DNA from: Reichenbachiella versicolor
GTDB taxonomy: Bacteria; Bacteroidota; Bacteroidia; Cytophagales; Cyclobacteriaceae
Assembly (NCBI RefSeq): GCF_003171675.1
Contig: NZ_QFZQ01000016.1
Coordinates: 1-42,452, forward strand
Direction of reading: 5' to 3'
DNA: 42,452 nt
This document shows, one piece after another, positions 32,053-38,736 of the stretch; within the stretch, counting starts at the first letter, position 1; every line of letters starts with the position of its first letter. The translations under genes and the position numbers were made by a program. The notes below the pieces were generated by a model, which searched no databases, was not told where the DNA came from, and saw only the letters and a list, made by a program, of their open reading frames with translations.

Positions 32053-32168
32053 AGATAATAATGATCTAATGCATAATAGATGACATGATTACAGTCACTC
32101 ATTAAATATTGAGAAACTTTTCAGTATCCTTTTTTTCTATTCTTGGGATAGAATCATTCATTTTGGGC

Positions 32169-33548
32169 ATGGCAAAAGCAAAAACCATTTATATCTGTCA
32201 AAACTGTGGTGCTCAGTCTCCGAAGTGGACGGGTAAGTGTAGCTCATGTGGAGAGTGGAATACTTATGTGGAAGAGGTAGTTTCTAAGGAAGATAAGAAT
32301 ACTCGAATATGGAGTAGCGAAGAAAAGCCCTCTGGATTACCCAATAAACCTGTAAAACTAACAGAAGTCAAAGCAGAGGAAAGTGACCGAATGCTGACTG
32401 GTGACTTGGAACTTGACAGAGTGTTAGGTGGGGGAATTGTTGCTGGGTCTCTTGTCTTGATAGGCGGTGAACCGGGAATCGGTAAGTCTACCTTGTTTTT
32501 GCAATTGGCATTAAGCTTATCTTCAAGGAAAGTGCTCTATGTATCTGGAGAGGAAAGCTCTCAGCAAATAAAAATGCGAGCGGACAGGATGAACAAAGGC
32601 GAAAGGGAGCATTGCTACCTACTGACCGAGACTTCACTGACTAACATTTTCCAACAAATCAAACAGCTAGACCCTGACATTCTAATCATTGATTCTATCC
32701 AAACGATGCATTCTCCTAAAGTAGAAAGTAGCGCAGGTAGTGTCAGCCAAGTCAGAGAGTGTACTGCAGAACTTCTTCAGTTTGCCAAGACATCTAATAT
32801 CCCCGTTTTCTTGATCGGACACATAACGAAAGAAGGTACCATAGCCGGACCAAAGGTTTTAGAACATATGGTTGATACTGTTTTGCAGTTTGAGGGAGAC
32901 AGGCATCTGAGCTATCGTATTCTAAGAACAGTCAAAAACAGATTTGGAAGTACATCAGAGATCGGCATATATGAAATGCTCGGCGACGGTATGCGACAAG
33001 TTTCTAATCCATCAGAAATCTTGATATCAGATAAAGCGGATGAACTTAGTGGTGTAACAATCGGTGCTACTATTGAAGGCAATAGACCATTGTTGATCGA
33101 AACGCAAGCTTTGGTAAGTGCCTCTGCCTATGGTACCCCTCAGAGAAGTACTACGGGCTATGATGCCAAGCGCCTGAATATGATGCTTGCCGTTTTGGAA
33201 AAACGCGGTGGATTACGCCTTGGCAATCAAGATGTCTTTCTGAATATAGCTGGTGGATTGAAGATTGATGACCCAGCGTTGGACTTAAGTGTATGCGTGT
33301 CGATCGTCTCCTCATATGAGGATCGTGCCATATCTTCTAAAATCTGCTTTGTCGGAGAAGTTGGTCTTGGCGGAGAAGTAAGAGCAGTAAATAGGATAGA
33401 CAATAGAGTCCTAGAGGCAGAAAAACTCGGATTTGAAGAAATCTATGTTTCTTCATCAAGTCAAAAAGGTCTGGAGAAAATGGATCGTAATATCAAAGTG
33501 ACATTTGTCAGCAATATTGCTGAAGTGTTCAAAGAACTGGCTTCTTGA
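32169..33548 (+). CDS. radA: DNA repair protein RadA/Sms
   Basis: The protein has 459 residues from the ATG at 32169 (MAKAKTIYICQNCGAQSPKW). An in-frame ATT/TTG-type extension upstream to 32109 is rejected as the family begins at this methionine. The C4 zinc finger is CQNCGAQ...CSSCGEW. The RecA-like ATPase has Walker A GGEPGIGKST and the RadA-specific KNRFG (TVKNRFGSTSE). The C-terminal Lon-like domain runs from about residue 290. RadA is a branch-migration helicase in recombination. The strand is opposite to feoA with about 170 bases between. Confidence 0.96.
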   Translation: MAKAKTIYICQNCGAQSPKWTGKCSSCGEWNTYVEEVVSKEDKNTRIWSSEEKPSGLPNKPVKLTEVKAEESDRMLTGDLELDRVLGGGIVAGSLVLIGGEPGIGKSTLFLQLALSLSSRKVLYVSGEESSQQIKMRADRMNKGEREHCYLLTETSLTNIFQQIKQLDPDILIIDSIQTMHSPKVESSAGSVSQVRECTAELLQFAKTSNIPVFLIGHITKEGTIAGPKVLEHMVDTVLQFEGDRHLSYRILRTVKNRFGSTSEIGIYEMLGDGMRQVSNPSEILISDKADELSGVTIGATIEGNRPLLIETQALVSASAYGTPQRSTTGYDAKRLNMMLAVLEKRGGLRLGNQDVFLNIAGGLKIDDPALDLSVCVSIVSSYEDRAISSKICFVGEVGLGGEVRAVNRIDNRVLEAEKLGFEEIYVSSSSQKGLEKMDRNIKVTFVSNIAEVFKELAS

Positions 33549-33640
33549 TGAATCAAGAAGCTTTGCTTTGTACATTTTCAGTAGACATATATAGTCAACC
33601 GGAGTTCAATTATGAAAGCCTAGCTACACAACTATTGTTT

Positions 33641-33871
33641 CATAATTGATCACTATGATGCCATAATCTACTTCTCTATTGCCATAATTATCTCCCAGAT
33701 ATTCATAATATCCTTCTCAACTATCATAATGTATATCTTAATCTTAATAATAGACAGATTATATCCCATAACGTAGAACTACACTTCCATAACAGCCTGA
33801 TCAAATATCATAACATATAGATTGGATATCATAATCTACTTTTCTAATACCATAACTAGACTCTTATCATC
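33641..33871. repeat. 21-base periodic CATAA(T/C) array, 11 units
   Basis: The hexamer CATAAT or CATAAC occurs at 33641, 33662, 33683, 33704, 33725, 33767, 33788, 33809, 33830 and 33851; at 33746 it is AATAAT. Every step is exactly 21 bases. Weaker look-alikes follow in register at 33872 (CGCAAT) and 33893 (CACTAC). The remaining 15 bases of each unit mostly differ, but position 14 is T in 10 of 11 units and position 21 is a pyrimidine in 11 of 11. Units at 33662 and 33830 share 18 of 21 bases. There is no reading frame through it without stops. Type and function are unknown; 21 bases is two turns of the DNA helix. Confidence 0.9.
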
Positions 33872-34054
33872 CGCAATAGCTAATTCAAGTATCACTACTC
33901 AGTTTTTGCCTCCATTGAACCAGAGACTATAATATTAAGAAGCTTCATGATTATGAATCACTGCAATAGGTATTTAGTCTGGAATAGTCACACTATCATT
34001 TACCATATGACCTAGGTGTGCTCAATAAAATATGTCATCTATGGTGTAGCTTCT

Positions 34055-34062
34055 TATCTTTG
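34055..34062 (+). promoter_or_regulatory. Dipeptidase -7 element
   Basis: TATCTTTG matches TAnnTTTG exactly, 45 bases before the ATG at 34108. No clear TTG at -33. Confidence 0.5.
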
Positions 34063-34107
34063 CTGCCAATTGAGTTTTTCCGCCTGTCCAGTATAAAACA
34101 AAGAGAT

Positions 34108-35475
34108 ATGAACGCAAGTGTAGAATACATCAAAAATCATCAAGAGAAGTTTTTAGACGAACTATTTAAACTTCTTAGAATCCCATCAATCAGTGCTGAT
34201 TCACAATATAAGGATGAAGTAAGAGCGACGGCTGACTTTGTACAGGCCAAACTTAAGGAGGCGGGCTGTGACAAAGCCGAAATCTGTGAGACTCCTGGAC
34301 ACCCTATCGTCTATGGCGAAAAAATTATTGACGAAAGTCTACCTACCATTCTTGTCTACGGACACTATGATGTTCAGCCAGCAGATCCATTGGATCTATG
34401 GGATTCACCTCCATTCGAACCTGTAATCAAAGACGGAAGAATTTACGCAAGAGGAGCCTGTGATGATAAAGGTCAATTCTATATGCACGTAAAAGCCTTT
34501 GAAGCAATGGTCGCCAACGACGAATTGACTTGTAATGTAAAGTTCATGATCGAAGGTGAAGAGGAAGTCGGATCGGACAACCTGGGTGATTTTGTGAAGG
34601 CCAACAAGGAAAAACTAAAGTCTGATATCATCGTGATCTCGGATACCAGTATGATTAGCAATGACTGTCCCTCAATCACCGTAGGTCTTAAAGGGCTTAG
34701 CTATCTAGAAGTAGAGGTAACTGGCCCGAATCGTGACCTTCACTCTGGAGTGTATGGTGGTGGAGTAGCTAATCCAATCAACACCCTATGCGACATGATT
34801 TCATCCTTGATGGATGACAAAGGCCGTGTGACTATTCCTGGATTTTATGACAAAGTAGTAGAGCTCACTGCTCAAGAGAGAGCTGACTTAAACGCTGCTC
34901 CATTCGACGAAGAAGATTACAAAAAAGATCTTGACATCGCTGCGGTAAAAGGCGAAGATGGATATACCACTCTTGAAAGAGTTGGTATCAGACCTACTCT
35001 AGACGTCAATGGTATCTGGGGTGGCTACATCGGTGAGGGAGCCAAAACTGTACTCCCATCAAAAGCATACGCTAAGATTTCGACTAGACTCGTACCGAAC
35101 CAGTCTAGTGACGAAATCACGGAGCTATTGGTAAAGCATATAGAAAACATAGCTCCTGATTACGTGAAAGTAAAAGTCACTCCTCACCACGGTGGTGATC
35201 CTGCTGTCACACCTACTGATTCCAAAGGATACTTGGCAGCAGCCCAAGCGGTGGAAAAAGCATGGGGCAAAAAGCCAATCCCTACAAGAGATGGAGGAAG
35301 TATTCCTATCGTCGCACTGTTCAACGAAGAACTTAAAGTTGACTCCGTACTGCTTGGAATGGGACTAGACGAAGATGCTATTCACTCCCCAAACGAAAGC
35401 TATGGTGTAGAAAACTACATGAAGGGTATCGAAACGATATCTTGGTTTCACCAATATTTCGCAGAAACAAAATAA
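34108..35475 (+). CDS. M20 family dipeptidase
   Basis: The protein has 455 residues from the ATG at 34108 (MNASVEYIKNHQEKFLDELF); a 30-residue in-frame extension upstream crosses the promoter and is rejected. The di-zinc site shows TILVYGHYDVQPADPLDLWD, GACDDKGQFYMHVKAF and MIEGEEEVGSDNL; the lid has GPNRDLHSGVYGG and the C-terminal ligand region ends DEDAIHSPNESYGVENY. It belongs to the carnosinase/CNDP-like branch of M20 peptidases, which hydrolyse dipeptides. No signal peptide is clear, so it is probably cytoplasmic. Confidence 0.93.
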   Translation: MNASVEYIKNHQEKFLDELFKLLRIPSISADSQYKDEVRATADFVQAKLKEAGCDKAEICETPGHPIVYGEKIIDESLPTILVYGHYDVQPADPLDLWDSPPFEPVIKDGRIYARGACDDKGQFYMHVKAFEAMVANDELTCNVKFMIEGEEEVGSDNLGDFVKANKEKLKSDIIVISDTSMISNDCPSITVGLKGLSYLEVEVTGPNRDLHSGVYGGGVANPINTLCDMISSLMDDKGRVTIPGFYDKVVELTAQERADLNAAPFDEEDYKKDLDIAAVKGEDGYTTLERVGIRPTLDVNGIWGGYIGEGAKTVLPSKAYAKISTRLVPNQSSDEITELLVKHIENIAPDYVKVKVTPHHGGDPAVTPTDSKGYLAAAQAVEKAWGKKPIPTRDGGSIPIVALFNEELKVDSVLLGMGLDEDAIHSPNESYGVENYMKGIETISWFHQYFAETK

Positions 35476-38469: not shown

Positions 38470-38736
38470 GCTGGGTCTTGTTTTGACGATAAGTTCCGCT
38501 TTCTCGACACGTCTTCGGTTGGTTCACTTGCGTTCATCTCTTTTATACCTACCTGATACTTTATAGATACTTTTTCCCTATTCCGCTCAATACCTGACAA
38601 TTACTCACCAAGCACCGTAGGGTGGTTTGAAGACTGTTCCTGAAAACCGCCTTCGGAGGGCCATACCTCCATCTCAATTACAGCATGTGAAAGAACTGTT
38701 ATTATTATTTTTTCGAGCTTTCACTTCTCGGCACAC
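38469..38736 (-). mobile_element. 5' fragment of the group II intron
   Basis: On the minus strand, GTGTGCCGAG at 38736 begins ~268 bases that match the first ~262 bases of the intron at 2768, with a small length difference in an AAT run. It breaks off at CCCAGCT and is followed at once by CCCCCGCTAGTCC of the ~345-bp repeat. The intron-encoded protein and domains V and VI are absent. The fragment is bracketed by related GCTAGTCC arms on both sides. Confidence 0.9.

Follow-up and report, generated by a model that had tools for sequence, protein, structure and literature searches.

An orphan array of 21-base units in Reichenbachiella versicolor that is probably one part of a module with PQLLE-related genes

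Why would a six-base motif recur at exactly 21-base intervals, eleven times in a row, between two genes of Reichenbachiella versicolor, while most of the sequence between the motifs has diverged? The window that we analyzed (the whole stretch of 42,452 nucleotides) is contig C9 of a 5.25-Mb genome in 22 contigs. The original prediction, made from the letters alone, was that selection maintains the spacing, and it offered three candidates: a cooperative protein-binding array, a phased bend, or an old tandem repeat. We think that the array is probably the orphan cis part of a two-part module, whose other part is a PQLLE-related gene, and that the duplex array is predicted to be read by a protein.

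The window array and its relatives in the genome

The eleven hexamers start at 33641, 33662, 33683, 33704, 33725, 33746, 33767, 33788, 33809, 33830, and 33851. Ten of them are CATAAY and the exception, AATAAT at 33746, has A for C, so our recount agrees with the original description, as do the T at unit position 14 (10 of 11 units) and the pyrimidine at position 21 (11 of 11). Two weak units continue the register, as claimed, and the end that was given for them (33893) is the start of the last one, which ends at 33913. The features around the array are as follows.

32109..33548, + strand: radA-like gene, upstream of the array
33571..33640, + strand: tentative leader 5' of the array (..CGGAG..TTCAATTATGAAAGCC..), from a weak MAFFT alignment with the leaders of the genome's 4 other CATAAY arrays
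33641..33871, + strand: orphan array, 11 units of 21 bases, five-array loose consensus YCATAAYnnAnnTCTnAAnTAY
33872..33913, + strand: two weak terminal units in register, CGCAAT (33872) and CACTAC (33893)
34018..35475, + strand: M20 peptidase gene, downstream of the array and in the same orientation; listed ORF start GTG at 34018

The peptidase gene also has an ATG at 34108, which is 236 bases after the last base of the eleven units. In the window, CATAAY has 38 copies on the + strand, and at that density we would expect about 1.5e-25 registers with at least 10 of 11 hexamers. Among the 28 other copies, no neighbors are spaced by 21 bases. Tandem Repeats Finder did not report the array, probably because its units are too diverged. 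At the edges of the window, group II intron matches lie near both contig ends (2828-2947 and 4195-4270 on the + strand, 38551-38670 on the - strand), and the contig may be bounded by copies of the intron.

Looking for the motif genome-wide, as had been proposed, turned up four further CATAAY arrays. A pattern of three units had 16 occurrences across the genome, versus none for a reversed control; a two-unit pattern was noisier (29 versus 12), and 4 of its 29 occurrences are isolated pairs. The five arrays are on contig C9 (the window), on C19 at 46.2 kb and at 108.6 kb (hereafter C19a and C19b), on C2 at 281.5 kb, and on C18 at 452.9 kb; a sixth copy, at C19:40617, is truncated. The C19a, C19b, and C2 stretches, including their arrays, align over 605-815 bases with 73-80% identity. 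C18 and, weakly, C9 share the leader before the array, and BLAST matches of the window copy to the other arrays are confined to the array itself and do not include the leader. No Rfam family reached its gathering score at the five arrays (the window and loci L038-L041).

The 53 units of the five arrays give a pooled consensus of CATAAYnnAnnTCTnAAnTAY, with information that peaks at positions 2-5 and has further peaks at 9, 14, 17, and 21. The claim that the remaining 15 bases of the unit are mostly different holds in that these bases are diverged, but they are not random, as the loose consensus extends through them. We found no PQLLE gene for the window array, hence "orphan," and we group it by motif with the C18 array, which is linked to such a gene. 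Of this genome's four orphans, three (C9, C19a, and C19b, but not C2) have a gene in the same orientation downstream, as does C18.

Some other features of these regions are worth recording. Type IX sorting domains are encoded near two of the arrays. There are cassette-like islands (L039 1105-4419 and L038 618-1985) with a ~200-base repeat between small ORFs (AHSA1, ArsR, and unknown genes), and ORFs for a HEPN/nucleotidyltransferase and for a KAP NTPase are close by. The 3' flanks of C19a, C19b, and C2 encode a 52-amino-acid peptide that we considered as a remnant of a PQLLE protein; a profile search gave no support for this. The peptide matches nothing in Pfam or PHROGs and, within the genome, is confined to those three flanks.

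A gene family beside arrays of changing sequence

Searching other genomes with the DNA pattern was of limited use. The exact CATAAY pattern occurs in 15 of 146 genomes (including the source), and these are mostly 7-base satellites and other repeats. Long satellites of the form (CATAATT)n or (CATAAYT)n in the relatives G040, G102, G106, G121, and G138 are a trap for such searches. Similarly, a scan of GTDB genomes gave at least 119 stretches, which were mostly 7-base satellites, with no PQLLE gene among the matches listed. A model of the array sequence (R1) matched 2 of 295 family genomes, namely the source and G073, and in a wider draw it matched the source alone among 390 genomes. A second model (R2) found G073 and G014 among 293 relatives of G073. 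Misses are likely, because the filters of these model searches were strict and no more than 11-15 candidates were scored in each genome. A Treponema metagenome-assembled genome has a coding-looking 21-base repeat, HNQTLVV (L140 4420-4776), whose unit types differ synonymously; it is probably a different thing, despite having the same period.

The array's relatives are more easily recognized by a gene. Genes of one family adjoin the arrays C18, G073-C4, G073-C27, and G014-C19, with the arrays upstream. The family is related to NCBIfam NF052641 ("PQLLE family protein"), and in the nearest group the proteins have about 230 amino acids. Three members score 27-39 bits against NF052641, versus a curated cut-off of 80, so we consider them to be relatives of the family that fall below its cut-off; 16 of 20 members match at E ≤ 0.01. 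With an alignment of the four seed proteins (A5), a search by protein only found 24 PQLLE matches, spread over 16 of 391 genomes, including one of the seven congeners (G007). Not all of the 24 genes are intact: G039-C33, G014-C17, and G288-C342 are partial or broken, and G073-C27 has an in-frame TAG. We left G288-C342 out of the protein alignments and comparisons.

At each locus we scored all tandem periods from 13 to 44, and we define a PQLLE-linked array as one whose strongest period is 21 or 42 within 1.5 kb of the PQLLE gene. By this definition, 23 of the 24 loci have an array (period 21 in 21 of them and 42 in two), and if the four seeds are excluded, 19 of 20 do. The score is at least 0.5 at 20 of the 24. 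The locus with no array is G288-C342, which has a partial gene on a short contig and where the "upstream" placement is unconvincing. As a control, we scored 284 tiles of 3.7 kb, skipping N-rich tiles. A score of 0.5 at period 21 or 42 is reached by 23 tiles: a PQLLE gene or its array is present in 20 of them, and the remaining 3 contain separate arrays from PQLLE-bearing genomes. For periods other than these, 11 tiles attain 0.5. In 17 of the 284 tiles, period 21 is the strongest but scores below 0.5, and because of this background, the weak loci G014-C20 (0.42), G241-C222 (0.44), and G007-C8 (cut by N) count for little. When about 0.78 Mb of sequence and two array loci were scanned, everything above 0.5 at period 21 was an array already known.

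The original prediction had proposed asking whether the location between radA and the dipeptidase is conserved. We found no support for this: in all six congeners that were read, the 700 bases downstream of radA are other sequence, with no CATAAY array. None of seven radA loci reaches an array score of 0.5, and period 21 is on top at two of the seven (0.46 and 0.48). When part of C19a was used as a DNA query, the seven congeners gave no match.

Across the PQLLE loci, the arrays have 6 to 19 direct units. The array is upstream of the gene at 19 loci and downstream at four (G135 twice, G259, and G091); where it is upstream, it lies 67-331 bases from the gene match (19 of 24 loci). The consensus varies between loci, including loci of a single genome, and some loci share a motif. 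For example, R. versicolor has a second PQLLE gene (L341, contig C16, about 870-1226 in gene orientation), and its array alternates between two kinds of units, has a strongest period of 42 with a score of 0.94, and differs from the C18 array. A 42-base superperiod is visible in some arrays. We also saw further 21-base arrays without an adjacent intact PQLLE gene in PQLLE-bearing genomes (G014 at L355 850-1228 and L360 3300-3470, and G135:C5 at L370, ~19 kb).

Apart from PQLLE, no neighboring family is shared by more than 3 of the 29 loci that we compared. We found no known DNA-binding domain in the PQLLE proteins, with single weak matches at most in Pfam, PHROGs, PADLOC, and the PDB. Specifically, among 20 members, no Pfam family was matched by more than one; in the search for a ribbon-helix-helix, helix-turn-helix, or winged-helix fold, Pfam and the PDB gave only single weak matches; and PADLOC gave two single weak matches (JetC and Csx1). 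We found no relatives in collections of plasmid (three queries), phage (two), or viral (one) sequences. In the group nearest to the window, the PQLLE proteins are acidic (pI 4.6-5.1).

Constraint, geometry, and the candidate readers

The similar copies C19a, C19b, and C2 allow us to ask what is conserved. In the three pairs, hexamer positions 2-5 have 0/44, 3/36, and 3/36 substitutions, versus 34/154, 41/126, and 38/126 at unit positions 7-20 (p = 1.5e-4, 0.003, and 0.008; the comparisons that involve C2 cover nine units and skip those next to the one that it lost). Elsewhere in the unit, where identity is 66-78%, there has been no less change than in the flanks (75-84%). Within the arrays, the alignments have no gaps, gaps of 6+15 bases, and gaps of 9+12 bases; each gapped pair sums to 21, which is best read as the loss of one unit in C2. 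Indels in the flanks number 3, 9, and 4; one of these is of 26 bases and the others are of 1-3. With gaps that total whole units, and a hexamer that is kept while the rest of the unit diverges, the comparison supports the suggestion that selection acts on both the hexamer and the spacing.

If the spacing matters because 21 bases is two helical turns, then conservation within the unit should oscillate. For each of the 22 gene-linked arrays that had six or more usable units, we calculated the information column by column over the 21 positions. The second harmonic (k = 2, or 10.5 bases) is the only one raised (mean amplitude 2.69 versus 1.60), and none of 5000 permutations was as high (p < 1/5000). 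The signal holds with permutation of 3-column blocks, in a less redundant set of 15 arrays, and in the 18 arrays of at least 9 units. When five orphans are added (27 arrays), the first harmonic is raised too (p = 0.008); in the 15-array subset, shuffling single columns puts it at p = 0.04, whereas shuffling blocks does not. In single arrays, k = 2 is the largest harmonic in 9 of 23. The third-base harmonic is flat (p = 0.5), and we found no signal of palindromes or of similar unit halves in the units. In the 27 arrays the phase is kept except at ends and in isolated units, with a sustained one-base slip in one array (G116-C2). The 10.5-base pattern is the trace that would be expected of a protein that reads two turns of duplex per unit from one face, and, as an average over the 22 gene-linked arrays, it agrees with the idea that the hexamers share a face of the helix. 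A phased intrinsic bend, another of the original candidates, is unlikely to be the general cause, since the G+C content of sister arrays goes up to 67%: in 7 of 23 arrays, G+C is 55-67% and the consensus is not built on A-runs.

The association with PQLLE genes, the 10.5-base oscillation, and the constraint on the hexamer together suggest that a protein-binding array is the best class for the window array. We propose that the trans part of the module is the PQLLE-related gene and that the cis part is the run of about 6 to 19 direct 21-bp units beside it. A protein, most likely the PQLLE protein itself, would read one face of the duplex and touch two successive turns in each unit. It would occupy neighboring units cooperatively, in a row that is polar because the units are neither palindromic nor internally repeated. 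The binding, the cooperativity, and any regulation by PQLLE are what we infer from these patterns. It does count against PQLLE as the reader that the nearest group is acidic, which is unusual for a DNA-binding protein, and that our searches recognized no known DNA-binding domain.

Do arrays and proteins match? Arrays tend to be more alike where the proteins are more identical (19 proteins, Spearman 0.25, Mantel p = 0.003). This correlation is weak, and shared ancestry alone could explain it. A pair of proteins that are 87% identical also has the arrays that are most alike (0.68), and, as an exception, the C18 and G078-C5 proteins are 61% identical with an array similarity of 0.15 (the median is 0.25). 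Orphans resemble particular gene-linked arrays: the four in R. versicolor resemble the C18 array (0.70-0.81), and an orphan in G073 resembles G073-C27 (0.73). Because our orphans resemble the C18 array and the C16 array differs, the C18 protein, acting in trans, is the likeliest reader of the window array. This protein may act on all of the orphans with its motif, among them the array that precedes the window's peptidase gene, and the orphans might serve as operators or anchoring sites.

The likeliest of the alternatives is that the array acts as RNA, as a transcribed, G-poor, unstructured leader or spacer with evenly placed YC steps that is bound by Rho or another RNA-binding protein. The CATAAY arrays of R. 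versicolor have 4-8% G on the array strand versus 14-24% in the 200 bases on either side, and their YC steps gather at two phases of the unit. More broadly, GC skew is negative on the gene strand (which for the window copy is the array strand) in 19 of 23 arrays, and the usual placement, a short distance upstream of a gene, suits a leader. The array strand is G-poor at most loci; duplex binding does not require this, and an RNA reading explains it better. On the other hand, a single strand gives no reason for a period of exactly 21 or for the 10.5-base oscillation, and the array strand does not consistently fold more weakly than its shuffled versions. Rho recognizes far less than a hexamer. 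The orphan C2 has a divergent gene beside it and G073-C11 a convergent one, which speaks against a general role of this kind. Also, by eye, the gap between array and gene in three loci holds a similar AT-rich stretch; if this is a promoter, then the array is outside of the transcript. (The promoter motif TAnnTTTG is absent from the gene strand of 20 loci.) All told, we consider the RNA explanation unlikely. We are also skeptical that a general nucleoid factor or other host factor binds the arrays while PQLLE has another job, for example as a partner or regulator of that factor. The acidity of the PQLLE proteins would fit, as would the array being upstream in most subgroups and downstream in one, but a general factor should read similar sequences, and the consensus varies by locus even within one genome. 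We view this as quite improbable.

Nor do we expect that these are neutral tandem repeats, such as an old minisatellite near a gene whose period and pattern were left by its origin. It is true that the number of units varies, that C2 has lost a whole unit, and that 7-base CATAATT satellites are frequent among the matches in relatives. But a neutral origin fits poorly with position-specific conservation after duplication, with array gaps that total whole units, with the 10.5-base oscillation, and with one period in dissimilar sequences beside one protein family, and we give it little credence. Finally, because 21 bases is seven codons, the arrays could encode, or once have encoded, proteins with heptapeptide repeats. 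Frame 0 of the R. versicolor arrays reads HNxxLxY, some arrays have long ORFs on one strand, the Treponema repeat looks truly coding, and one array of 27 (G014-C19) has a codon-position pattern of variation at p = 0.043. Yet across the 27 arrays there is no such pattern overall (combined p = 0.84), open frames occur in 15 versus 15.0 expected from column shuffles, and stops total 758 versus 733. Between C19a and C19b, 6 codon differences are synonymous and 29 are not, and frame 0 of the R. versicolor arrays has 11 stops versus 6.8 expected, so coding does not explain the constraint on hexamer and phase. Given open frames and stops at chance level, flat variation by codon position, and mostly non-synonymous changes, we ruled out a coding repeat, and we see almost no chance that the heptapeptide explanation is right.

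Comparison to known arrays and implications

Returning to a module in which a protein would read duplex arrays, it resembles several known systems. Among these are partition centromeres (ParR/parC of type II, TubR/tubC of type III, type Ib, and ParB with iterons such as cisII of D. radiodurans), in which an array of direct repeats lies beside the gene of a binding protein; in our case the binding is what we propose. The known partition arrays work by wrapping or filament formation, with promoter repression in known cases, according to PMC5016525, and another paper describes 18-bp iterons upstream of parAB (PMC7671480). Unlike these, the PQLLE loci have no recurrent second gene that could be a motor NTPase (ParA, ParM, or TubZ), the PQLLE proteins share no Pfam family and for three queries have no match in the plasmid collection, and the arrays have a period of 21 bp with a consensus that changes by locus.

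Similarly, the origins of plasmid replication have phased direct repeats, or iterons, beside the gene of the protein that reads them, as we suggest for PQLLE, and the iteron period is about two helical turns. In contrast, none of the 20 PQLLE members matches a Rep family, there is no other recurrent neighbor, and one genome can have several PQLLE-type arrays on several contigs. The operator arrays of auto-regulated transcription factors also come to mind, given that the arrays usually lie upstream of the PQLLE gene and that orphans lie upstream of other genes. But ordinary operators have fewer units than the 6 to 19 seen here, and these units are directional and lack dyad symmetry. CRISPR and other guide arrays share the combination of a constant and a variable part at a fixed period. 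In PQLLE arrays, however, the unit comes to 21 bases in total, the variable part itself has a loose consensus, and there is no recurrent effector or cas-type neighbor; the PADLOC matches of PQLLE members to JetC and Csx1 are single and weak.

By analogy, the module most likely works like the direct-repeat arrays of partition or replication systems. By the features tested, it is not a member of those families: it has no recurrent partner gene and no recognizable DNA-binding domain. The original prediction knew of no described element of this form, and our literature searches, with most subscription journals outside of their coverage, likewise found no paper on a PQLLE-linked module of 21-bp arrays. 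The combination of PQLLE genes and 21-bp arrays is apparently undescribed.

We can also imagine a bolder reading, which we offer as speculation that has a real chance of being right, although we would not bet on it. PQLLE proteins and their arrays might form a self-contained, privately coded nucleoprotein system, in which each protein polymerizes, in register, along its own array with one subunit for every two helical turns, and also along chromosomal orphans. This would be a new class of anchoring, silencing, or segregation site that has neither a motor nor a replication gene. If the module is what we propose above, it would be a solution that is unrelated to the arrays known so far from plasmid replication and segregation, and it would provide a natural set of protein/DNA pairs in which one geometry is kept while the sequence changes. 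It also offers a purely geometric signature, the gapless 21-bp phase together with 10.5-bp conservation, for recognizing arrays such as the one in the window, which Tandem Repeats Finder missed. And because a protein family of unknown function would be tied to a defined DNA element, its function becomes testable.
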